Shown piece after piece: positions 51,502 to 62,325 of a DNA stretch of 64,000 nt; position 1 is the first letter of the stretch, and the number at the start of each line of letters is the position of its first letter. Origin of the DNA: Ornithinimicrobium cryptoxanthini (lineage in GTDB: Bacteria; Actinomycetota; Actinomycetes; Actinomycetales; Dermatophilaceae); NCBI RefSeq assembly GCF_023923205.1, contig NZ_CP099490.1, forward strand, positions 1,178,001 to 1,242,000, written 5' to 3'. The position numbers and the translations under genes are program-made. The notes under the pieces were generated by a model. The model was not told the origin of the DNA. It saw only the letters and a list, made by a program, of their open reading frames with translations, and searched no databases.

Positions 51502-54500
51502 ATGTCCGAGCGCTACGTCATCACAGCCCGTGACCCGGGAGCCACAGCCGAAGCCGATCTGCCCGACGACGTGCGCGTCGTGGCCGCCCTGGACCGGGGG
51601 CAGCTGGTCGACGCCGAGCCGCAGAGCGTCCAGGAGCTGGAGGCGCGCGGCTTCCGGGTCAAGCACCTCCGCGACCCGCACCTGATCCGGTTCTTCTCCT
51701 ACGAGATCGATGCGGAGCGTGGCACCACTCCCCAGACGCCCCCCGAGTTCCAAGACCAGACCGAGTCGGAGGGGGTGAACCACCTGGTCCTGCTGGCTGG
51801 ACCGGTCCAGGAGTCCTGGCTCGCGACCCTGGCCGAGCGTGGAGTTCGACTCGTGGAGCCCGTCTCGCCGTTCGCCTACTTCGTGCGGGCGGAGGCGGGA
51901 ACGGTCGCGGGTCTGTCGGCGCTGCCTTTCGTCGAGTGGACGGGTCCGCTCGAGCCGGCCTACAAGGTCAATCCGGTCCTGCTCGGTCTCGAGGACGAGG
52001 CCCCGGGGGTGGGCCCCATCGAGGCCCTGGACGTCGGGGTCCTGGCCGACGGCGACATCGCCGCCGTGACCGCCTTGATCGAGACGGCGGGCGGCACCGT
52101 CGAGCAGGTGGGACCGGAGACCTCGGACGCCTATGTCAGCATCCGCGCACAGCTGCCCCGTGAGGCGCTGGCGGCGGTGGCCGCACACCCGGACGTGCGC
52201 TGGGTCGACGCCATCCACACGCCGCAGCTCGAGGACGAGCGCGGCGCCCAGATCGTGTTCGAGGACCTCGACGGCGCCGCCGCCCCCAACACCGCGCCCA
52301 ACGTGGGCTATGCGGCAAACCTGACGGCGCTCGGCGCGGACGGCGCAGGGGTCACCATCGCCATCTGCGACACCGGGGTCAGCACCAACGACCCGGCCAC
52401 GGTGCACGATGACCTGGCCGGCCGGCTGGCCTTTGCCGTCACCGGCAACGGCGGGACGCCCTCAGGCGGCGACACCAACGGTCACGGCACCCACGTCGCC
52501 GGCATCGCCGCCGGCGACGGCGGCTCTGGCGACACCGACCCGCAGGGTTTCCTCCTCGGCATGGGCGTGGCCACCGGAGCCATGGTGGGCAGCGTCGTCG
52601 CCAACTCCGGGTGGCAACAGCTGGTGGCCACCTCGGCCCAACAGGGCGCGCAGGTCATGAACAACTCGCTGTCCATGAACGGGCCCACCTACACCGCCGA
52701 CGACCGCAGAATCGACCTCGGCGTGCGGGACGCCGACCCGGCCGCTGCGGGCATCACTCCGCTGGTCATCGTCTTCTCCGCCGGCAACAGCGGACCAGGC
52801 GCGACGACCGTGACGAAGTCGACCAAGAACGCCATGCTGGTGGGCAACGCGCTGAACGCCCGACCCGGTGAGGGCGATCCTGCAGACGACATCCGCGGCC
52901 TGCGCACCTCGTCGTCACGTGGAGCTGCGGCCGACGGCCGCACGCTGCCACACGTGACCGCTCCCGGGACCGACATCATCTCGGCCCGCAGCGCCGCGAG
53001 CGCACGGGTGGCCTACGAGGACACCGCGGGCACCACGCACGCCGACCACACCAGCATGACCGGCACCTCGATGGCCGCCCCGCACGTCGCGGGCGCATCG
53101 GCAGTGCTGATCGACTGGTGGCGCCAGAGCCGTGGGGGAGCGACCCCCAGCCCGGCGCTGCTCAAGGCACTGCTCGTGGCGAGCACCGAGCCTGTGGCCG
53201 GCGGCACGGACGGCAATGGTGGCACGATCGCCGCAGGGCCGACCAACGATGCGGGCTGGGGGCGCATCTCCCTGGAGAACGCCCTGCTGCAGGCACCGGC
53301 CAGCGACCGCGGCCCCAAGATCTTCGTCGACCAGCGCCAGGCGTTCACCGCGACGGGTCAGGAATACCGCATCCGGGTCGCCGCCGCCGACCCGGCACGT
53401 CCGCTGCGCGTGACTCTCACCTGGACCGATGCAGCCGGAGCCGTCGGCGCGAGCCCCGCACTGGTCAACGACCTTGACCTGGAGGTGCAGCAGGTCGGGG
53501 GCAGCCTCTTCCGGGGCAACGTCTTCACGGGTGCCTGGTCGAACACCGGCGGGACGGCCGACTCGCTCAACAACACCGAGGGCGTCGCCATCCAGAACCC
53601 CGCCGGGGTCTATGAGATCTCCGTCGTGGCAGCCAACGTCAGCGCCTCCGCCCGCACCGACATCGCCACCCCGTGGCAGGACTTCGCGCTGGTCATCGAC
53701 AACGCCGAGGTGCCCGCCGCCGATCCGGTCAGCGTGGTGACCGTCCTCGACCGGTCAGGGTCGATGCAGACCCTCGGCTATGTCGATGTCACGCGCCAGA
53801 CCTCCCGCCAGTTCATCGACCTCCTCTCGGTCGACGACTCGGTGGGCGTGGTCAGCTTCGGGGACACGGGCCGCGAGGAGTTCCCCGGGACAGGCACTCC
53901 ACAGGCGATCACGGGACAGCCGACGCGCGATGACGCGATCGCCTCCGTGGACGCGATCGGCTTTGGCGGCTGCACCTTTATGGGCGCCGGCATCGAGCGG
54001 GGAGGCGCGATGCTCGGTGCGGCGGGCAGCCGTCGCGCCCTCGTGCTGCTCTCCGATGGATATGACAACAAGGGCTGCGACCCCGGCAACGCGGCCAAGC
54101 CGAGCGCGCTCGACGCGGCAGCGGCCCTCCCCGCGAGCCTGCCGATCTATTCGTGCGCGATGGGGCCGGCCTCGGACCAGGTCCTGCTCGCCCAGCTCGC
54201 CGAGAACACGGACGGGCGCTACTACTTCATGCCCACCATCGACGACCTCTTCGAGATCTACAACTACATCCGCGGGCAGGTGACCGGTGACGGGATCATC
54301 GTCAACGAGTCGTCGGTCGCCTCGCGCTCCGAGGTGTCCGGCTGGGTCGACGGCTGCGCGGCATCGGTGCTCTTCACGGTCGCGTGGCACGACCAGGGGT
54401 TGCACTACGTGTCGCGTGAGGCCAGGAAGAACCACGAGATCTCGGTGCGTCTGCGCACGCCGGGCGGGCGCTGGCTGTCGTTCTCCTCAGCGGAGTTCGC

Positions 54501-55317
54501 CCGCACCGTCGGTGCCGGCTATGTCAGCTTCGCGCTGCAGGAGCCCGAGGCCGGCCAGTGGACCGTGGAGGTCTCGACCCGCCGACGCCAGCACACGGCA
54601 TACACCGTCGGTGGGTTTGTCCGCAGCCCGCTGCGCCTCGAGGTGGACGCACCGCACTTCGTCGGTGTCGGCCAGCCGATCGGTGTGCGGGCGGTCGTGC
54701 GGGACGGCAAGGAGCCACTGTCGGGCGTCAAGGTGCGCACCACGGTGACCCCGCCGCCGCCCTACAAGGTCCTGCTCGACAAGTTCGCCAGGCAGCTGCG
54801 CGCGGTGCGCCTGCCTGACGTCGTCGACGGCAGACCCCACCGGCTGCGTGACGACCTGACGCGGCTCTCACTGCTGCGCGACGAGCTCCTGGCCAAGAAG
54901 GGCGAGGACATCCTTGCCTCGTCCCAGGTGTCTGTGCCGATGGACGCATCGGGTCGACTCGGGGCGCGCGAACTGGTGGGTCCGCTCGACCCGCGGGCTC
55001 GGATCACGTTCCCGGGTGACGACCTGAGGGCGTTCAACCGAAACGTGCACCACGTGGTGGCGGCACCGGGGCTCTCGACCGGCCCGCTGGTCGTCACGCC
55101 GGCGGTCGGCCCGCGGCTGCGCGATCTCGGGTGGCTGCTGGACCCCCGGGTGGTGGCCCGCCCGCGCCTCGACGGTGGCTCGACCGGGCGCTTCGGGGAC
55201 ACGAAGCAGTCCGGCAGCTACACGGTGCAGGTCACCGCGGCCGGCTTCAGCCCGGCGTGCGGCACCCGCTTTGTCCGCAAGGACCTGGTGAGCGTGGTCG
55301 TCGGCAAGCGCGGCTGA
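51502..55317 (+). CDS. Large S8 subtilase fused to a von Willebrand A domain, no signal peptide
   Basis: 1271 residues; SD GAGGAGA 5 bases before the ATG. N-terminal region (1-240) is two inhibitor-like ferredoxin folds without a signal sequence. S8 domain: D290 (AICDTGVS), H328 (NGHGTHVAG), N387-N388 and S523 (GTSMAAPHVAG). Residues 604-740 form a jelly-roll with LRVTLTWTDAAG and LVNDLDLEV as in KP-43-type subtilases. VWA domain 743-925 has a complete MIDAS: D750-x-S752-x-S754, T825, D852. A beta-rich C-terminus (about 926-1271) is not recognised. No TM segment. Either cytoplasmic or exported by an unknown route. Its partner is not obvious. Confidence 0.88.
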   Translation: MSERYVITARDPGATAEADLPDDVRVVAALDRGQLVDAEPQSVQELEARGFRVKHLRDPHLIRFFSYEIDAERGTTPQTPPEFQDQTESEGVNHLVLLAGPVQESWLATLAERGVRLVEPVSPFAYFVRAEAGTVAGLSALPFVEWTGPLEPAYKVNPVLLGLEDEAPGVGPIEALDVGVLADGDIAAVTALIETAGGTVEQVGPETSDAYVSIRAQLPREALAAVAAHPDVRWVDAIHTPQLEDERGAQIVFEDLDGAAAPNTAPNVGYAANLTALGADGAGVTIAICDTGVSTNDPATVHDDLAGRLAFAVTGNGGTPSGGDTNGHGTHVAGIAAGDGGSGDTDPQGFLLGMGVATGAMVGSVVANSGWQQLVATSAQQGAQVMNNSLSMNGPTYTADDRRIDLGVRDADPAAAGITPLVIVFSAGNSGPGATTVTKSTKNAMLVGNALNARPGEGDPADDIRGLRTSSSRGAAADGRTLPHVTAPGTDIISARSAASARVAYEDTAGTTHADHTSMTGTSMAAPHVAGASAVLIDWWRQSRGGATPSPALLKALLVASTEPVAGGTDGNGGTIAAGPTNDAGWGRISLENALLQAPASDRGPKIFVDQRQAFTATGQEYRIRVAAADPARPLRVTLTWTDAAGAVGASPALVNDLDLEVQQVGGSLFRGNVFTGAWSNTGGTADSLNNTEGVAIQNPAGVYEISVVAANVSASARTDIATPWQDFALVIDNAEVPAADPVSVVTVLDRSGSMQTLGYVDVTRQTSRQFIDLLSVDDSVGVVSFGDTGREEFPGTGTPQAITGQPTRDDAIASVDAIGFGGCTFMGAGIERGGAMLGAAGSRRALVLLSDGYDNKGCDPGNAAKPSALDAAAALPASLPIYSCAMGPASDQVLLAQLAENTDGRYYFMPTIDDLFEIYNYIRGQVTGDGIIVNESSVASRSEVSGWVDGCAASVLFTVAWHDQGLHYVSREARKNHEISVRLRTPGGRWLSFSSAEFARTVGAGYVSFALQEPEAGQWTVEVSTRRRQHTAYTVGGFVRSPLRLEVDAPHFVGVGQPIGVRAVVRDGKEPLSGVKVRTTVTPPPPYKVLLDKFARQLRAVRLPDVVDGRPHRLRDDLTRLSLLRDELLAKKGEDILASSQVSVPMDASGRLGARELVGPLDPRARITFPGDDLRAFNRNVHHVVAAPGLSTGPLVVTPAVGPRLRDLGWLLDPRVVARPRLDGGSTGRFGDTKQSGSYTVQVTAAGFSPACGTRFVRKDLVSVVVGKRG

Positions 55318-55370
55318 CCGCTGGCGCGCATCGGCAGGGTGAAGGAAATTCGCTGACGAGGCGTGGCGTC

Positions 55371-55376
55371 TTGACA
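55371..55376 (+). promoter_or_regulatory. Candidate -35 (TTGACA) upstream of the SAM riboswitch
   Basis: TTGACA is a perfect -35 box and the only one in this stretch. The matching -10 is not clear: TGTGATT near 55389 is too close (12 bases) and the sequence at 17-18 bases (ATTGGG/TTGGGT) is a poor match, so the promoter is uncertain. Confidence 0.35.
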
Positions 55377-55404
55377 GGGCCGAAGATCCTGTGATTGGGT
55401 GTGG

Positions 55405-55495
55405 CCACCCATCCAGAGCGGCCGAGAGATCTGGCTCGTTGACGCCGCAGCAACCATCCTTGTGAGAGGACAGGTGCTCACGCCAGGATCGATGG
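55405..55495 (+). promoter_or_regulatory. SAM riboswitch (S-box, SAM-I type)
   Basis: The S-box core is recognisable: AGAGCGGCCGAGAGATCTGG from 55415, then TTGACGCCGCAGCAACC to 55455. P1 is ATCC (55411-55414) with GGAT (55486-55489); P2 GCGGC (55418-55422) with GCCGC (55444-55448); P3 CCT/AGG around 55458-55469; P4 GGTG/CGCC (55473-55484). The riboswitch is followed directly by the SD (GGAGG, 55494-55498) of a small cysteine-ending leader. GATCCTG at 55385-55391 is complementary to CAGGATC at 55484-55490 and could compete with P1. Confidence 0.82.
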
Positions 55496-55502
55496 AGGAA
55501 CC

Positions 55503-55583
55503 GTGCACCAGCACACGACCGAGCACCACCCGCACCTGCGCCGGGCAGTCGACCTGATGCGCCGGGCGGTCAGCGCCTGTTGA
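55503..55583 (+). CDS. Cysteine-ending leader peptide, 26 residues
   Basis: GTG start with GGAGG 4 bases upstream, TGA stop. The peptide is VHQHTTEHHPHLRRAVDLMR then RAVSAC. The H/R-R-x-V-D-L-x-R-R-x-x-S-A-x-C end matches the actinobacterial putative leader peptides found before sulfur-assimilation genes, in which a terminal Cys codon senses Cys-tRNA. The last codons, including TGT at 55578-55580 and the TGA, lie inside the hairpin 55565-55600. This suggests translation-coupled attenuation: fast translation with ample cysteine versus stalling without. Confidence 0.72.
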   Translation: MHQHTTEHHPHLRRAVDLMRRAVSAC

Positions 55584-55600
55584 TCCCAGCGCTGTCCGCC
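55565..55600 (+). terminator. Attenuator-like hairpin overlapping the leader peptide end
   Basis: GGCGGTCAGCGC (55565-55576), loop of 12 containing the Cys codon and stop, GCGCTGTCCGCC (55589-55600). Eleven pairs with a single T-T mismatch. A ribosome stalled at the Cys codon would cover the left arm and prevent this stem; no alternative antiterminator was identified. Confidence 0.6.
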
Positions 55601-55666
55601 GCCCTGCTTCACCACGCCGTCTCCCGCTGAGCCGCGCCGACCGCCGGCCCGGCTGACCGCGCCAGG

Positions 55667-55708
55667 GCACCACGCCGTCGGCACCACGCCGTCGGCACCA
55701 CGCCGTCC
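55667..55708. repeat. 14-bp tandem repeat, three copies
   Basis: GCACCACGCCGTCG at 55667, 55681 and 55695 (last base differs in the third). A related CACCACGCCGT occurs at 55610. It lies in the untranslated leader between the small peptide and the flavin reductase. No coding potential was found in 55584-55831. Confidence 0.85.
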
Positions 55709-55831
55709 GGCCGAACTGCCTGCGCCGTGGGGCCGAACTGCCCCGCGCCACCCCCCGCATTCTCGCGGCGCGCCCCATGGGCCGTGCCTGCTTAGCCTGC
55801 CGACGACCGCCGTCGGTGACAGGAGAACCTG

Positions 55832-56368
55832 ATGTCCGCCATACCTCTCACCCGGGTCCGTCCGGACCCGACCACGACCGATCTGCGAGCCGCCTTCGGG
55901 CGGGCCGCCTCCAGCGCCTGGGTGATCACCGGCTCCGGTGAGCGAGGGCCGGTCGGCTTCACCGCGATCTCGATCGTCTCGGTGTCCCTCGCCCCGCCGC
56001 TGGTGTCCTTCAACATCTCCAAGAGCTCTTCCTCGCTCGTCACGATTGCGCACACCGGTCGTGCGGCGCTGCACCTGCTCGGGGAGGACCAGCTGCCGCT
56101 GGCCGAGCGCTTCGCCCACGACCGGGCCAAGCGCTTCGTCGACGACGACGTCTGGCACTTCGACGACCACGGGCTGCCCGCGATCCGGGGCGTCGCCAGC
56201 CGGCTGGTCACCCGCATCCACGACCTCGTCGACGCCGGTGACAGCTTCGTCGCGATCGCCCGCGTCGAGCACGCCACGACCTCCACCCGGCGGCCCCTGG
56301 TGCACCACGCCGGGAGCTATGCCGCGCTCAGCCCGCAGACCCCACTGACTGCCCCGAACGGAGCCTGA
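55832..56368 (+). CDS. Flavin reductase family protein (partner of the sulfone monooxygenase)
   Basis: 178 residues. DLRAAFGRAASSAWVITGSGERGPVGFTAISIVSVSLAPPLVSFNISKSSSSLVTI is the flavin-reductase-like split-barrel signature, with FAHDRAKRFVDDDVWHFDDHGLP and DLVDAGDSFVAIARVEHA later. It would supply FMNH2 to the monooxygenase encoded three bases downstream. SD AGGAGA before ATG 55832. First structural gene behind the riboswitch and leader peptide. Confidence 0.88.
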   Translation: MSAIPLTRVRPDPTTTDLRAAFGRAASSAWVITGSGERGPVGFTAISIVSVSLAPPLVSFNISKSSSSLVTIAHTGRAALHLLGEDQLPLAERFAHDRAKRFVDDDVWHFDDHGLPAIRGVASRLVTRIHDLVDAGDSFVAIARVEHATTSTRRPLVHHAGSYAALSPQTPLTAPNGA

Positions 56369-56371
56369 CCC

Positions 56372-57562
56372 ATGACCGACACCCCCAACACCACTGCCAC
56401 AAACGCCCCGACCACCTCGGCGAGCGCGACCCCGCTGGGAGCCCCCGGCAGCGACCCGCTGTCCTTCGCCTACTGGGTGCCCAACGTCAGCGGCGGCCTG
56501 GTCGTCTCCAACATCGACCAGCGCACCGACCACACGCCGGACTACAACCGCGAGGTCGCGCGCACCGCCGAGCGGGTGGGGTTCGACTATGCGTTGACGC
56601 AGGTGCGCTACCTGGCGTCCTACGGTGCGGACGCCCAGCACGAGTCGGTCTCCTTCTCGCTCGGGCTGCTCGCCGCCACCGAGCGGCTCAAGGTCATCGC
56701 GGCGGTCCACCCAGGCCAGTGGCCGCCGACCGTGCTGGCCAAGCTCGCGGCGACGGCGCAGGAGCTGCACGACAACCGGTTCTGCCTCAACGTCGTCTCC
56801 GGCTGGTTCAAGCGGGAGTACACCGACCTCGGCCTGCCGTGGCTGGACCACGAGGAGCGCTATCGTCGCGCTGAGGAGTTCATCGAGGTGCTGCGCGGCC
56901 TGTGGACGCAGGACGGGTTCACCTTCCGCGGCGACTTCTATCGCACCCGTGACGTCACCTTCCGGCCGACTCCGCGCCAGCAGCCGGAGGTCTTCCAGGG
57001 CGGCAACTCGACGTCGGCCCGCGCGATGGCCGGGCGGTTGTCAGACTGGTATTTCATGAACGGCAACACCGTCGACGGCGTGGCCGAGCAGGTCCGCGAT
57101 GTGGGTGCCCAGGCGGCTGCCAATGGACGCCGGGTCCGCTTCGGGCTCAACGGTTTTGCGGTCGTGCGTGACACGGAGGCTGAGGCCCGCGACGTCGTCG
57201 AGGAGATCATCGCCAAGGCCGACGCGGACAAGGTCAACGACTTCGGCAACGCCGTCAAGCAGGCCGGTGCCGCCACCTCCGACAAGAAGGGGATGTGGGC
57301 CGACAGCCAGTTCCGGGACCTCGTGCAATACAACGACGGCTTCCGCACCGGGCTGATCGGCACGCCGGACCAGGTGGCGCAGCGGATCGTGGACTACAAG
57401 CTGGTCGGCGTCGACCTGCTCCTGCTCGGCTTCCTGCACGTCCAGGAGGATGTCGAGCGGTTCGGCACCGAGGTGATCCCGCGGGTGCGCCGCCTCGAGG
57501 CCGAGCTTGGCCTGCGGCCGAGGGAGTATGCCGAGCCGCACCTGCTCGAGCCGGTGGGCTGA
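56372..57562 (+). CDS. sfnG: FMNH2-dependent dimethyl sulfone monooxygenase (SfnG-like, LLM family)
   Basis: 396 residues. After a Thr/Ser/Ala-rich start, FAYWVPNVSGGLVVSNIDQRTDHTPDYNREVARTAERVGFDYALTQVRY is characteristic of SfnG, which oxidises dimethyl sulfone to methanesulfinate so that sulfur can be assimilated. NVVSGWFKREYTDLGLPWLDHEERYRRAEEFIEVLRGLW and GTPDQVAQRIVDYK are luciferase-family landmarks. Alkanesulfonate monooxygenase (SsuD) is the main alternative; the N-terminus fits SfnG better. Placed behind SAM and cysteine controls, in keeping with sulfur limitation. Confidence 0.88.
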   Translation: MTDTPNTTATNAPTTSASATPLGAPGSDPLSFAYWVPNVSGGLVVSNIDQRTDHTPDYNREVARTAERVGFDYALTQVRYLASYGADAQHESVSFSLGLLAATERLKVIAAVHPGQWPPTVLAKLAATAQELHDNRFCLNVVSGWFKREYTDLGLPWLDHEERYRRAEEFIEVLRGLWTQDGFTFRGDFYRTRDVTFRPTPRQQPEVFQGGNSTSARAMAGRLSDWYFMNGNTVDGVAEQVRDVGAQAAANGRRVRFGLNGFAVVRDTEAEARDVVEEIIAKADADKVNDFGNAVKQAGAATSDKKGMWADSQFRDLVQYNDGFRTGLIGTPDQVAQRIVDYKLVGVDLLLLGFLHVQEDVERFGTEVIPRVRRLEAELGLRPREYAEPHLLEPVG

Positions 57563-57565
57563 CTG

Positions 57566-58126
57566 GTGGCGACGGTGGGTGTGGCTGGAGTGGGTGTGGC
57601 TGGAGCGGGTGCCGCCGGAGCGGGTGCTGCCGCGGCCCTGCGCGAGCGGCAGCGGCCCCTCAAGAAGGGCTATCAGGACGAGCCCGCGTCGGCACTGGTG
57701 CCCAGCACCGCGACGGCGACGGTCGACCAGGCGGGGCTCACCGCCACCGTCTCGACCTGGGCCGGTGACGTCGTGGCGGGACTGCACCCTGCGGCCGGTG
57801 GCGATGGGACGCAGGCCTGTTCTGGCGACATACTCCTGCAGTCGCTCGTCGCCTGCGCGGGGGTGACGCTCTCGTCGGTCGCGACCGCGCTGGGTGTCGA
57901 GCTGCGCTCGGCCTCGGTCACCGCCAACGGCACGTGGGACGCCCGTGGCACGCTCGGCGTCGACCGGGAGGCTCCCGTCGGCCTGACCGCGATCGAGCTG
58001 GTGTTTGACCTGGACACGGACGCCGAGGAGTCGAAGGTGGCACGCCTGCTGGAGCTGACCGAGCGCTACTGCGTCGTGGCGCAGACGCTTGCCGACCCGC
58101 CCGAGGTGACCTTCCGGCATACCTGA
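57566..58126 (+). CDS. OsmC-family protein
   Basis: 186 residues from GTG 57566, three bases after the sfnG stop. The N-terminus is a G-V-A-G-A-G repeat (about 4-24). The OsmC fold follows with the two reactive cysteines in TQACSGDILLQSLVACAGV and C-terminal LLELTERYCVVAQTL. OsmC proteins reduce organic hydroperoxides or other thiol-reactive compounds. Here it may protect against or process sulfinate/sulfur intermediates. Last gene of the sulfur operon; a long hairpin follows. Confidence 0.85.
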   Translation: MATVGVAGVGVAGAGAAGAGAAAALRERQRPLKKGYQDEPASALVPSTATATVDQAGLTATVSTWAGDVVAGLHPAAGGDGTQACSGDILLQSLVACAGVTLSSVATALGVELRSASVTANGTWDARGTLGVDREAPVGLTAIELVFDLDTDAEESKVARLLELTERYCVVAQTLADPPEVTFRHT

Positions 58127-58160
58127 TCGGCGCGCGCCGACCCGAGTCCGGTCTCCTCAT

Positions 58161-58234
58161 CAACCTGGGCACCGTTGCGGCACCTGTGCGATAGCTATAT
58201 CTGTCGCACAGGCGCCGTAGGCGTGCCCAGGTTG
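58161..58234. terminator. Long 31-bp-arm inverted repeat between convergent genes
   Basis: Left arm 58161-58191 starts CAACCTGGGCAC and ends CCTGTGCGA; right arm 58204-58234 starts TCGCACAGG and ends GTGCCCAGGTTG; loop TAGCTATATCTG. The outer 12 and inner 9 pairs are perfect; the middle 10 include two G-U pairs and three mismatches. It should terminate both the sulfur operon and the methyltransferase gene. Its length and AT-rich loop are unusual. Confidence 0.85.
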
Positions 58235-58243
58235 GGGGAGTGA

Positions 58244-59317
58244 TCAGGGGCGAGCCTCGATGACCATGTTGAAGTCGTTCTCGGCGGCCCGGCGGATGCT
58301 GCGATAGCCCGCCTCGGTCAGCACCTCGCGCAACCTGGCCTCCCCTGCCTGCGCCCCGAGCGCCAGCCCCACCGGCTGCGACAGTGAGTTGGGTGTGCAC
58401 ATGAAGGTCGAGGCCGCGAAACCCAGCGCAGCCATCGGGATCGTGACCAGGGTCGTGGCCAGGTCGTCGGCGGCCAGGGGCTCCACCAGCACCAGGGTGC
58501 CGTCGTCGGCGAGGGAGCGTCGTGCGTGTGAGGCCGCGCCGACGGGGTCGCCGAGGTCGTGGAAGGCGTCGAAGAAGGTGATGACGTCGACGTCGCGGTC
58601 CTGATAGCCCTGGCAGAAGTCGACCGCGAACCGCACCCGGTCCGAGACCCCGGCCTCCGCAGCCCGCTCGGTCGCTGTCTCGATCGACTCGGGGTGCACG
58701 TCGTAGCCGACGAACTGCGAGGCGGGATAGGCCTGCGCCAGCAGGAGCAGCGGTGCCCCGCGGCCGCACCCGATGTCGAGGACCTTGGCCCCGGAGCGCA
58801 GCTTCTCGTCAACCCCGTCGAGAGCCGGAACCCACTCGGCGAGCAGGGAGTTGCGATAGCCGACCCGGAAGAACCGCTCCGTCGACTCGAAGGTGGCTGG
58901 ATCCTGCTCCGCCCAGGGGATGCCGGCTCCGGTGCGGAACGCCTCGACCAGCTGATCGGTGCGGCGGTGCATCCCGCTGATCAGCGGGGCGGCCCCGATC
59001 ATGGCGGCGGGCGAGTCGTCTGAGGCGAGCACGGCGGCGTGCTCCGGCGGCAGGGTGAAGGTCCCGGCCTCCGGGTCATAGGTGACGATGCCTACGGCCG
59101 CCTGTTGCGAGAGCCACTCGCGCACATAGCGTTCGGCGGTGCCGGTCTCTGCGGCGAGCTGCGCCGGGGTGAGTGGTCCGCCAACTGCCATGGCGGCATA
59201 CAGGCCGGTGCGGTCGCCGACCACCATCATCGCGGTGGTGGCGCCGCCGGCGAGCATGCCGCCGATCTGCTGGGCAAAGGCTCCGACCTTGTCCATGTTG
59301 AGCGTTGGTGCAGTCAT
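58244..59317 (-). CDS. Class I SAM-dependent methyltransferase with Rv2258c-like winged helix
   Basis: 357 residues. The N-terminal dimerisation winged helix (TTAMMVVGDRTGLYAAMAVGGPLTPAQLAAETGTAERYVREWLSQQAAVGIV) resembles Rv2258c. The SAM fold has VLDIGCGRGAPLLLLAQAYP, FVGYDVHPESIETA, VITFFDAFHDLGDP and VLVEPLAADDL. The target may be a small molecule. SD AGGAGGA 5 bases before the ATG. It is divergent from the SARP regulator, 110 bases apart, and is its likeliest direct target. Confidence 0.88.
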   Translation of the reverse strand: MTAPTLNMDKVGAFAQQIGGMLAGGATTAMMVVGDRTGLYAAMAVGGPLTPAQLAAETGTAERYVREWLSQQAAVGIVTYDPEAGTFTLPPEHAAVLASDDSPAAMIGAAPLISGMHRRTDQLVEAFRTGAGIPWAEQDPATFESTERFFRVGYRNSLLAEWVPALDGVDEKLRSGAKVLDIGCGRGAPLLLLAQAYPASQFVGYDVHPESIETATERAAEAGVSDRVRFAVDFCQGYQDRDVDVITFFDAFHDLGDPVGAASHARRSLADDGTLVLVEPLAADDLATTLVTIPMAALGFAASTFMCTPNSLSQPVGLALGAQAGEARLREVLTEAGYRSIRRAAENDFNMVIEARP

Positions 59318-59414
59318 GATTCCTCCTGGTTGACCGTGGAGTGCCAGCGTGCGCGCCGAGGGATTCACCAGGGATTCACGGGGGAGCTCACGGGCGCGGC
59401 ACGCCGCACTCAGG

Positions 59415-59420
59415 CATAGT
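59415..59420 (+). promoter_or_regulatory. Putative leaderless -10 (CATAGT) of the SARP regulator gene
   Basis: CATAGT ends 7 bases before the ATG at 59428; TGAGG is within the gap but too close for an SD. The same hexamer precedes the sugar importer operon. Confidence 0.5.
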
Positions 59421-59427
59421 TGAGGCA

Positions 59428-62325
59428 ATGCCTGACCTGAGACTCGGCGTGCTCGGAGCGCTGGAGGTCCACGTCGACGGTCAGCTGCGGGAGATCCCCG
59501 CGGGCCGTCAACGGGCGGTGCTGTCCTGCCTGCTCGCCCACGACGGCCACCCGGTGTCGGCGGACGCATTGATCGAGGCGGCGTGGGGTGCTGAGCTGCC
59601 GGACAACCCGCCCAAGGCGCTGCGCACCGTGCTCTCGCGGCTTCGCTCCCACCTGGGGCGCGACGCGATCGAGCTGGGTCCGGCGGGCTACCGGCTGACG
59701 GTCGACGCCGTCGATGCCGACGAGTTCGTGGAGCTGCTCGAGCGGGCCGGGTCGCTGGATGCGGCCCAGGCGGGTGGCCTGCTCGGGCGGGCGCTGGCAC
59801 TGTGGCGCGGGCCGGCGTTCGGGGAGTATGCCGAGGCGCCCTGTGCCAGGCCGCTCGCCCAGCACCTGGAGCAGCTGCGGATGGACGCGATTGAGGCCCA
59901 CGCGTCAGCGCAGCTCCAGACCGGTGAGCCGGGCGCGGCCGTGGCGGGTCTGGAGCTGCTGCTGGCCGACCAGCCGTTCCGCGAGCACGCGGTGGAGCTG
60001 CTGGCGACGGCGCTCTATCACGCGGGCCGGCAGACCGAGGCGCTGCAACGGCTGCGGGACTATCGAGCGGTGCTCGCGGCAGAGCTGGGCCTTGATCCGG
60101 CGCCGGACCTGGCCGCGCTGGAGGGACGCATCCTCGGCCACACGCTGCCACCCGCGGGCGCCATGGGCTCGGGGGAGTCGCCGGGGTCAGGCGGGTTGGG
60201 ACTGCCGCACTGGTTGGACACCTCGACGGCGTTCATCGGACGCGAGGACGAGCTGGCCGACCTGGTCGCTGCGGTCGCGCGGAATCAGGTGACCGTGGTG
60301 ACGGGCCCCGGCGGTGTCGGCAAGTCCCGCCTCGTGGCCGAGGCGCTCAGCGCATTGCAGGCCGAGGTCGGTGGGCCGATCTCGGTGACCGAGCTGGCAA
60401 CGGTCAGATCCGGTGGTGCCGCCGCAGCGGTGGCCGACACGCTCGGACTGCGGCCCGACGCGGCCTCGGTGACGGACGACCTGGTCGAGTTCCTCACCGC
60501 CGTGCCCCACCTGCTGGTCCTCGACAACTGCGAGCACCTGCTCGACGAGGTCGGGCCCATCGTCACGACGGTCACCCGGCGGTGCCGGGACGTGCGTGTG
60601 CTGGCCACGAGCCGACGACGACTCGGCGTGGGCGCGGAGCTGCAGGTCCCGCTCGGGCCGCTGCGGCTGCCCGAGCAGGGAGCCACCACCGGGGTGCAGG
60701 GATCGGCCGCGTCAGTGCGTCTGTTTGGTGACCGCGTCCGGCGGCTGCGCCCGTCGTTTGCGCTGACTGCTGACAACACTGCAGAGGTCGTGGAGCTCTG
60801 TCGGCGTTGTGACGGACTCCCGCTGGCACTGGAGCTTGCGGCCTCCCGCACCGCGACGTCCGGCACCGCCGAGGTCCTGGACCGGCTCGGGGCCGACCTC
60901 GCCCAGGATGAGCCGGGCGGCCTTGGTGCCGTGGTCGCCTGGTCCGCCCGGCTCCTCGAGCCTGAGCAGCGCGAACTCCTCGACTGTCTCTCGGTCTTTG
61001 CCGCCGACTTCTCGGGGGAGTCGGTCCGGGGGGTGGTGGTGCACCTGGACTCGTGGAGCGGTGACGCGACCTCAGCGCTGGCTGAGCTGGTCGAGTCGTC
61101 CCTGGTCGCACACCACCTGTCGGGCAGCGGTTCTCGTCATCGGCTGCTGGAGATGGTGCGGGTCTTCGCAGCGCGCAGCCTGGCCGAGTCGGGCCGGGAG
61201 CAGGAGGTCCGCGCCGCGCACGCCGCGTGGGTGCGCGACGTCGTCACGGGGATCCGCGCCGACTGGTCCCGAGTCGATGGTGCCGAGGTCAGCGAGCGGT
61301 TGGGCAGGTGCAGCGCGGAGGTCGTCGGCGCGCTGCGCTGGGCACTCGACGCCGATGCGCTGGCCCTGGCCAGCGACATCACCCAGGCGGTCGGGCGCTG
61401 CTGGCACTGGACCCCTGGGCTGGCGCTGCGCGACCTCATGATCGAGGTGGGGGAGCGCGGCCTGCTCACAGCTGGTCCCGACGTCGCGGCCGGCGTCGCG
61501 ACGGGCGCGTTCTGCACCGGCGAGCGCGGCGACCTGGTCCGTGCCCACAGTCTCGGCAAAGCAGCGCTAGAGATGTCCCGCGACCCGGACTCGACCGCGA
61601 TAGCGCAGGTGGCGCTCGCCGTGGCTGCCATGTATTCCGGCGACCTCGACACCTCGGCCCACTGGTTCCGGGCGGTGAGCACGCGGCCCGAGCTGATCGG
61701 TGAGGGCAACACCTCGTTGGCGCTGCTGGCGTGCTATCGCGACGACCTGGCCTCGGCGCGCGACCATGCCGCGGTGGCGCTGGCGGCAGGGCCGTCTTCG
61801 GGCGACCACTCCCATGCGTTTGCCCGGTATGCCGCTGGCGAGGTCGAGGCCCGCACCGACGTCGCACGGGGCGCAGAGCTGTTGGCGGAGGCGGCGGCCG
61901 AGGCTGACCGTGTGGACGCGGAGCAGGTCAGTCGCGTCTCGCGGATCGCGCTGTTCGCGCTGCTGGTGCGCGACCGTCGGCCTGCCGATGCGATGCCGCT
62001 GGGGCTGCGGCTCTGCGCGGACCTGCGCCGGGTGGGTGCGTGGACTCAGGTCTGGACCCTGCTGCGGATGCTCGCGGAGCTGTTGACCGATCACGGGCGG
62101 TGGTCCGACGCGGCCTTCTTCCTGGGGGCAGCGCAGGCAGCGGCGTCGGCACCGCCGCCCGTCGGCGCCGACATCGAGCGGTATGCCGTGCTGCGGGCTC
62201 GCCTGTCCGACCACCTGGGCGCTGGAGTGCTGGGACAGATCGAGGCCCTGGCCGCGGGGACTGCGCGGGCGCAGGTCCTCAGCCGGGCCGAGCGGGTGCT
62301 GGCCGACCTCGCCAGTCAAGCCTGA
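59428..62325 (+). CDS. SARP/AfsR-like regulator: OmpR-type DNA-binding, BTAD, NTPase and TPR-like C-terminus
   Basis: 965 residues. A winged OmpR/PhoB-type domain (about 1-95: MPDLRLGVLGALEVHVDG, VLSCLLAHDGHPVSADALIEAAWG, LRTVLSRLRSHLG), the bacterial activation domain (about 98-240), then an NB-ARC/STAND-like NTPase: P-loop GPGGVGKS 293-300, LLVLDNCEHLLDE from 362, and LDRLGADLAQDE. The C-terminal 400 residues are helical TPR-like. ATP-driven oligomerisation with ligand sensing by the TPRs is typical of AfsR-type activators. It probably drives the divergent methyltransferase and possibly others outside the window. Confidence 0.92.
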   Translation: MPDLRLGVLGALEVHVDGQLREIPAGRQRAVLSCLLAHDGHPVSADALIEAAWGAELPDNPPKALRTVLSRLRSHLGRDAIELGPAGYRLTVDAVDADEFVELLERAGSLDAAQAGGLLGRALALWRGPAFGEYAEAPCARPLAQHLEQLRMDAIEAHASAQLQTGEPGAAVAGLELLLADQPFREHAVELLATALYHAGRQTEALQRLRDYRAVLAAELGLDPAPDLAALEGRILGHTLPPAGAMGSGESPGSGGLGLPHWLDTSTAFIGREDELADLVAAVARNQVTVVTGPGGVGKSRLVAEALSALQAEVGGPISVTELATVRSGGAAAAVADTLGLRPDAASVTDDLVEFLTAVPHLLVLDNCEHLLDEVGPIVTTVTRRCRDVRVLATSRRRLGVGAELQVPLGPLRLPEQGATTGVQGSAASVRLFGDRVRRLRPSFALTADNTAEVVELCRRCDGLPLALELAASRTATSGTAEVLDRLGADLAQDEPGGLGAVVAWSARLLEPEQRELLDCLSVFAADFSGESVRGVVVHLDSWSGDATSALAELVESSLVAHHLSGSGSRHRLLEMVRVFAARSLAESGREQEVRAAHAAWVRDVVTGIRADWSRVDGAEVSERLGRCSAEVVGALRWALDADALALASDITQAVGRCWHWTPGLALRDLMIEVGERGLLTAGPDVAAGVATGAFCTGERGDLVRAHSLGKAALEMSRDPDSTAIAQVALAVAAMYSGDLDTSAHWFRAVSTRPELIGEGNTSLALLACYRDDLASARDHAAVALAAGPSSGDHSHAFARYAAGEVEARTDVARGAELLAEAAAEADRVDAEQVSRVSRIALFALLVRDRRPADAMPLGLRLCADLRRVGAWTQVWTLLRMLAELLTDHGRWSDAAFFLGAAQAAASAPPPVGADIERYAVLRARLSDHLGAGVLGQIEALAAGTARAQVLSRAERVLADLASQA

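Follow-up and report, generated by a model that had tools for sequence, protein, structure and literature searches.

In a 64,000-nucleotide (nt) stretch of the Ornithinimicrobium cryptoxanthini genome (contig NZ_CP099490.1, positions 1,178,001 to 1,242,000; hereafter the window), an operon encoding a flavin reductase, the dimethylsulfone monooxygenase SfnG and an OsmC-like protein is preceded by a SAM-I (S-box) riboswitch aptamer and, directly behind it, by a leader peptide frame with a single cysteine codon. This arrangement probably represents a serial two-signal leader, in which the SAM-I element, responding to S-adenosylmethionine (SAM), would gate a cysteine-sensing leader peptide. The architecture consists of the aptamer, an overlap between its P1 helix and the Shine-Dalgarno (SD) sequence of the leader, a conserved peptide with a fixed UGU codon, a hairpin kept within the genus, a C-rich spacer, and the occurrence of the two modules both alone and together. 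The sequence data argue strongly for a conserved composite leader, and the mechanism put forward for it below is a prediction.

SAM-I aptamer and its overlap with the leader start

Covariance analysis recovered the S-box core that an initial annotation, made from the sequence letters, had recognised (Table 1). The RF00162 match covered the full-length core (model positions 1-108 of 108, E 1.1e-11); nothing else in Rfam matched the window at the gathering threshold (cmscan), and no second RF00162 match was found in the genome. According to the covariance alignment, P1 is formed by GAUGG (55491-55495) pairing with CCAUC (55409-55413). The GGAGG sequence that the initial annotation had placed behind the aptamer does exist, but it is not free sequence, because its first two G are shared with the 3' strand of P1, and its spacing to the GTG start is 4 nt. 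The SD of this upstream open reading frame (uORF) overlaps the ligand-stabilised helix, which is the arrangement expected of a riboswitch-controlled uORF, and 37 of the 39 leader-bearing SAM-I sites described below likewise had SD-like letters where the aptamer ends. The leader frame itself (MHQHTTEHHPHLRRAVDLMRRAVSAC) was found as first read, with 26 codons, a GTG start at 55503, a UGA stop at 55581-55583 and UGU as its sole Cys codon.

In 5 of 25 SAM-I sites found before a flavin reductase gene (L013, L021, L047, L048, and L054), the same compact aptamer sat directly on the flavin reductase start. For aptamers sitting directly on gene starts, translational control is the simplest reading, and these direct cases, together with those at SfnG starts (see below), argue that the aptamer acts on translation initiation. 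An anti-P1 hairpin (UGGGUG/CACCCA, 55396-55411) was considered as the expression platform and rejected, as it overlaps the candidate -10 element and was not kept in most relatives compared. Separately, four genomes from the order search (G231, G259, G337, and G350) had up to nine SAM-I matches each, and in most of these matches a long frame began right where the aptamer ended; judged by eye only, such frames included rhodanese-like, MetF-like and ABC-transporter frames.

Recurrence of the SAM-I and leader pairing

The SAM-I sample comprised 182 sites, namely 67 from the family (the complete match list, including L025, which lies below the family cut-off), 85 from the order (25 loci and 60 top-ranked further matches, some skipped; more matches exist) and 30 from the class (restricted to the highest scores, each of them a long aptamer). 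A leader was recorded where a frame of 12-60 codons started -8 to +20 nt from the aptamer end and contained R-x(1,3)-[VIL]-D-[LFH], and the chance expectation was obtained from dinucleotide shuffles of the DNA downstream of the aptamer. Of the 182 sites, 39 had such a frame immediately after SAM-I, against 0.60 expected, and at 37 sites the motif was also followed by a Cys, against 0.33 expected; the small frame noticed initially is maintained in relatives as a conserved peptide. The 39 sites were spread over 13 genera in five families. They comprised 27 of the 67 family sites, 12 of the 85 order sites and none of the 30 class sites. Since the class sites all had a long aptamer with a long frame within 25 nt, the SAM-I and leader pairing belongs, as far as sampled, to the order Actinomycetales.

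Because high-GC DNA is rich in open frames (87 frames of at least 20 amino acids overlap positions 53000-60500), the small frame could in principle have arisen by chance next to a SAM-I riboswitch of the ordinary kind, translational or transcriptional. This explanation is already contradicted by the recurrence above expectation and by the retention of the peptide in relatives, and the same peptide type also occurs before SfnG without SAM-I; it is therefore considered extremely improbable.

Among the 25 SAM-I sites before flavin reductase genes, 17 carried the VDL leader. Three others (L010, L012, and L015) carried a different short Cys frame (MSCCFQEM..., MFCRNRLM..., and MFQCFTEM...), and short frames resembling MSACMPQR, MSSCMPLR or MSSCMTPR stood behind SAM-I at L220, L232, and L233; such other Cys-containing frames are possibly independent cysteine leaders. 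In addition, SAM-I with the leader preceded an OsmC-like gene at L016, L030, L043, L058, and L063 (PF02566 in 5/5 scanned), a placement that hints at a sulfur role of these OsmC proteins.

Conservation of the leader peptide and of its UGU codon

The leaders were aligned on the conserved Asp (position 0); the search pattern partly forces Arg at -4 and this Asp, and does not force Arg at +3 or Cys at +9. Arg -4 and Asp 0 were present in 39/39 leaders, and Arg +3 and Cys +9 each in 37/39, with the window peptide showing all four residues. All four CGN codons were used for Arg -4 (14, 6, 13, and 6 times), indicating that the synonymous sites of the leader are well mixed. The Cys +9 codon, on the other hand, was UGU in 36 of the 37 SAM-I-linked leaders having it, whereas the UGC:UGU ratio was 116:24 in the long frames of the window, 112:17 in the frames beside the leaders and 18:3 in the other Cys codons of the leaders. 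The corresponding Fisher p-values for the UGU excess (2e-20, 3e-22, and 5e-11, respectively) are overstated because related leader sites are non-independent; nonetheless, its direction opposes codon usage. Every +9 Cys codon was UGU in 12 of the 13 genera, while in the thirteenth UGU occurred in four leaders and UGC in one, and two further leaders lacked the Cys. The fixation of UGU is interpreted as selective pressure on how this single codon is decoded.

Conservation of the peptide residues could also be produced by a nascent-chain sensor, in which RRxVDLxR in the exit tunnel would arrest the ribosome at the Cys codon upon cysteine or a related metabolite. TnaC provides the comparison for nascent-chain arrest of this kind. 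The constant spacing of Arg -4, Asp 0, Arg +3, and Cys +9, with free Arg codons, would suit such a sensor, as would the single Cys codon, which is little for a plain attenuator responding to tRNA supply; the motif, however, served to find the sites, so that its conservation comes partly from this choice of sites. As an explanation of its own, nascent-chain sensing appears quite unlikely, and it is compatible with a cysteine leader gated by SAM-I, of which it would alter only how the stall arises.

As a further feature of these frames, the Val before the Asp was encoded by GTC in 25 of 28 Val codons, compared with GTC 782 : GTG 676 in the window frames (Fisher 1.5e-4). A GTC Val followed by Asp yields the palindromic GUCGAC, which is located at 55548-55553 in the window and at the same place in relatives.

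Modules occurring alone in front of sfnG

The best 80 of 587 SfnG loci were examined; the signatures used for SfnG, and for flavin reductase at the SAM-I sites, were short custom patterns. Rfam models were run on 60 of these loci, among them every one of the 37 leader loci mentioned here. Leaders of the same type without SAM-I were detected at 37 of these loci, with UGU in 36 of the 37 and with no SAM-family Rfam match in any of the 37; 29 of the 37 are titled Streptomyces and hence are non-independent. At 35 loci the leader ended 109-339 nt before the SfnG signature (UGU in 34/35), and at L131 and L141 it was positioned behind SfnG and was not counted as preceding it. A 38th leader hit, L123, has SAM-I and the same peptide as the SAM-I site L017, and the two contigs are equally long. 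Furthermore, SAM-I sat directly on the SfnG start at four loci, L125 (Quadrisphaera), L127 and L130 (Kineococcus), and L126 (a metagenome-assembled genome of Actinomycetales), and no leader of this type was found at these four; L128 and L129, SfnG loci from the same genera, gave no RF00162 match. Both modules stand alone as well as together, suggesting that the two were joined upstream of a single enzyme system.

These loci bear on a simpler relay with one input, in which SAM alone would be sensed, translation of the leader would keep Rho off the spacer, and the Cys codon would be incidental. The spacers are indeed C-rich, two leaders of this type have no Cys (L072 and L073, see below), and the Mycobacterium tuberculosis Mbox and B12 leaders use uORFs for which no amino-acid sensing is described (PMC12810186, PMC11260477). 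Such a relay is nevertheless unlikely, given that Cys +9 and its UGU codon are kept so consistently and contrary to codon usage, and that the UGU leaders preceding SfnG without SAM-I at 35 loci would need a signal of their own.

Hairpin and spacer behind the leader

The hairpin described initially, with the Cys codon and the stop in its loop (55577-55588), is formed by GGCGG-U-CAGCGC (55565-55576) and GCGCUG-U-CCGCC (55589-55600), that is, by 11 pairs and one U.U mismatch, and its 5' arm consists of the last leader codons. Folding analysis upheld it, as the segment 55560-55606 had a z of -3.47 and only 1 of 200 shuffles was as stable. Within the genus, the pairs were counted over the nine leader sites before the flavin reductase operon, leaving out the tenth genus leader, L016 (before an OsmC gene), as another type; 97.9% of the cells were paired and two pairs showed two-sided changes. 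Of 500 shuffles, 7 did equally well, and slid versions were far worse.

Behind the leader, C exceeded G in the following 100 nt at 33/33 loci versus 14/33 upstream of the promoter (six loci being excluded for too little sequence), promoter-upstream DNA being the reference for this comparison. The C-rich spacer would fit Rho-dependent termination, which has been suggested for actinobacterial cys leaders (PMC1262725).

Proposed two-signal mechanism

From this arrangement we infer that SAM binds, that the ribosome stalls and transcription terminates, and in which direction each signal acts, as follows. The transcript would start at the aptamer or close to it. SAM binding would keep P1 stable and covering part of the leader SD, leaving the leader untranslated, and termination is then predicted under a hairpin model and a Rho model alike. 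When SAM is low, P1 would open and a ribosome would translate the leader. If Cys-tRNA is plentiful, this ribosome would reach the stop codon and leave, and the hairpin and/or Rho acting on the spacer would terminate transcription before the operon; if Cys-tRNA is scarce, the ribosome would wait at the UGU codon, covering the hairpin's 5' arm and the spacer edge, and transcription would continue into the operon. Because only a ribosome held at UGU would protect from termination, both low SAM and low Cys-tRNA would be required. The operon would thus be fully on only with SAM and cysteine both low, the time for dimethyl sulfone scavenging, and off with either of them high. The initial annotation had proposed that both signals must be low, and this reading fits the anatomy, in which SAM-I lies over the leader SD and the UGU is near-invariant, but the hairpin holds for the genus only and does not supply a general output. 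The wider proposition, of a recurrent Actinomycetales RNA device in which SAM-I would decide the use of a one-cysteine leader (with an invariant UGU and perhaps help from the nascent RRxVDLxR) as an AND circuit in series, is regarded as evenly balanced.

Several observations weigh against the serial SAM and cysteine reading, in addition to the overstated p-values and the choice of reference DNA for the C-rich spacers. SAM-I sites without such a leader are the majority (143/182). The leader holds one Cys codon and no run of them, and two leaders of the same type have no Cys, with CCA and TCA in the Cys position (L072 and L073). Against NCBIfam models, the window peptide scored 10 bits with NF042933, below the cut-off of 45 (E 0.55), and had no match with NF042934 (none at E up to 10) or NF042936. 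A profile built from the 37 SAM-I-free leaders gave it a modest 6.4 bits, a score reached by 14 of 7800 shuffled peptides. The fold of the whole leader was unremarkable (z -1.03), and a sigma-70 promoter scan found no promoter at the scan threshold.

How transcription ends is the weak point of the explanation. The hairpin is followed by no U-tract, a scan detected no terminator, and the combination of hairpin and U-tract that defines a classical intrinsic-terminator attenuator is absent here. An arm-to-arm duplex test over the 39 leader sites gave a mean z of -0.18, with 7/39 sites at 10/200 or less, six of which were in the window's genus and one elsewhere (L029). The hairpin was accordingly rejected as a general output device and retained as a genus feature.

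A family 5 solute-binding protein was found behind L072.

Comparison with known systems and significance

Riboswitch-controlled uORFs, cysteine leaders and two-sensor leaders are each already known. In M. tuberculosis, the Mbox-rv1805A (pe20) leader (PMC12810186) and the B12 riboswitch-uPPE2 leader (PMC11260477) have a riboswitch controlling the translation initiation of a uORF, and Rho-dependent termination was shown or thought likely for these riboswitches (PMC12810186, PMC11260477). They share with the window, for which it is a prediction, an actinobacterial uORF gated by a riboswitch; they differ in that they have other ligands, uORFs not described there as amino-acid sensors, and non-sulfur downstream genes.

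The M. smegmatis cysteine leaders have been reported as attenuators (Canestrari 2020). Like the window leader, the mycobacterial polycysteine short open reading frames (Ms5788A and Ms4527A types; Canestrari 2020) and the actinobacterial cys leaders (PMC1262725) are short frames with Cys near the stop, before sulfur genes. Cysteine-responsive attenuation, which is described for those leaders, is only predicted for the window. Moreover, the known cys leaders are described as leaderless with runs of Cys codons, whereas the window frame has an SD within the SAM-I P1 and a single kept UGU. NCBIfam NF042934 (cis_reg_atten, 'putative leader peptide') shares the core motif, and its family description has no riboswitch. 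Several SAM-I-linked leaders match NCBIfam leader models, with L030 (38.8 bits) and L057 (27.2 bits) reaching the NF042934 cut-off of 27, whereas the window peptide is below the cut-offs; it was considered as a member of an NF042934-type family, and with the motif shared and the cut-offs missed, membership was not assigned, although under the proposed reading it would act in the manner of such leaders.

Regarding two-sensor leaders, the tandem attenuators of Salmonella mgtCBR (ATP and proline frames, PMC3641672) likewise read two signals on one leader mRNA, one of them through the codons of a short frame. There, each of the two sensors is a short frame that works independently of the other, with additive effects, in contrast to the window, where the aptamer would gate the second sensor. 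The tandem SAM and B12 riboswitches of Bacillus clausii metE (as told in PMC3641672) also provide two sensors, one for SAM, but these are independent aptamers with no leader peptide. The open-licence literature yielded no report of a riboswitch gating an amino-acid leader peptide in series, including a SAM-I element with a cysteine leader, and no riboswitch reported with sfnG, in agreement with the initial remark that no such combination had been described before sfnG.

If true, the proposed leader would be a compact natural case of two sulfur signals read serially on one RNA, and would imply that these bacteria use dimethyl sulfone as a last-resort sulfur source. It would also come with natural one-module controls before the same enzyme (riboswitch only, leader only, and both), making the share of each layer testable. 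The fixed UGU in organisms preferring UGC is an easily testable clue to how actinobacterial cysteine leaders act, a mode of action left open at their original description (PMC1262725).

Locus layout and upstream elements

The features of the locus are listed in Table 1. The operon of three genes proposed initially was borne out by family matches above the cut-offs, and the gaps from flavin reductase to SfnG and from SfnG to OsmC are 3 nt each.

Table 1. Features of the SAM-I leader and the downstream operon (positions within the window)
Feature	Position	Strand	Basis
Candidate promoter, TTGACA 55371-55376, 16 nt, GATTGG 55393-55398	55371..55398	+	By eye; weak assignment
SAM-I (S-box) aptamer, compact form	55406..55498	+	RF00162 covariance match, 61.0 bits, cut-off 44.4
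SD sequence GGAGG of the leader	55494..55498	+	Sequence and aptamer pairing; first two G also in P1 3' strand
Leader peptide frame MHQHTTEHHPHLRRAVDLMRRAVSAC, GTG start	55503..55583	+	Open reading frame and motif recurrence
Regulatory Cys codon UGU (predicted role), nine residues past the conserved Asp	55578..55580	+	UGU in 36/37 SAM-I-linked leaders with Cys there
11-pair hairpin, Cys codon and stop in loop, no U-tract	55565..55600	+	Fold z -3.47; genus-level pair conservation
C-rich, G-poor spacer, possible Rho loading region (Rho inferred)	55584..55831	+	116 C, 75 G of 248 nt
Flavin reductase	55832..56368	+	PF01613, 93.2 bits, cut-off 27
Dimethylsulfone monooxygenase SfnG	56372..57562	+	TIGR04021 equivalog, 590.9 bits, cut-off 382.95
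OsmC-like protein	57566..58126	+	PF02566, 62.4 bits, cut-off 27.5

The TTGAC of the candidate promoter and its spacing are also present in genus relatives, and this weak candidate would place the transcription start near the first P1 base. Between the candidate -35 and -10 elements, a conserved CCGAAGATCC-like element is located at 55380-55389, 25-26 nt 5' of the aptamer. It was detected in 12 genus sites including the window (the others being L010-L012, L014, L015, L017-L020, L022, and L024). An inverted, GATCCTTCGG-like copy stood at -62 in six sites with the CCGAAGATCC-like element (L011, L017-L020, and L024) and was not found in the window. The CCGAAGATCC-like element and its inverted copy at -62 raise the possibility of a third layer of control, exerted by a DNA-binding regulator.

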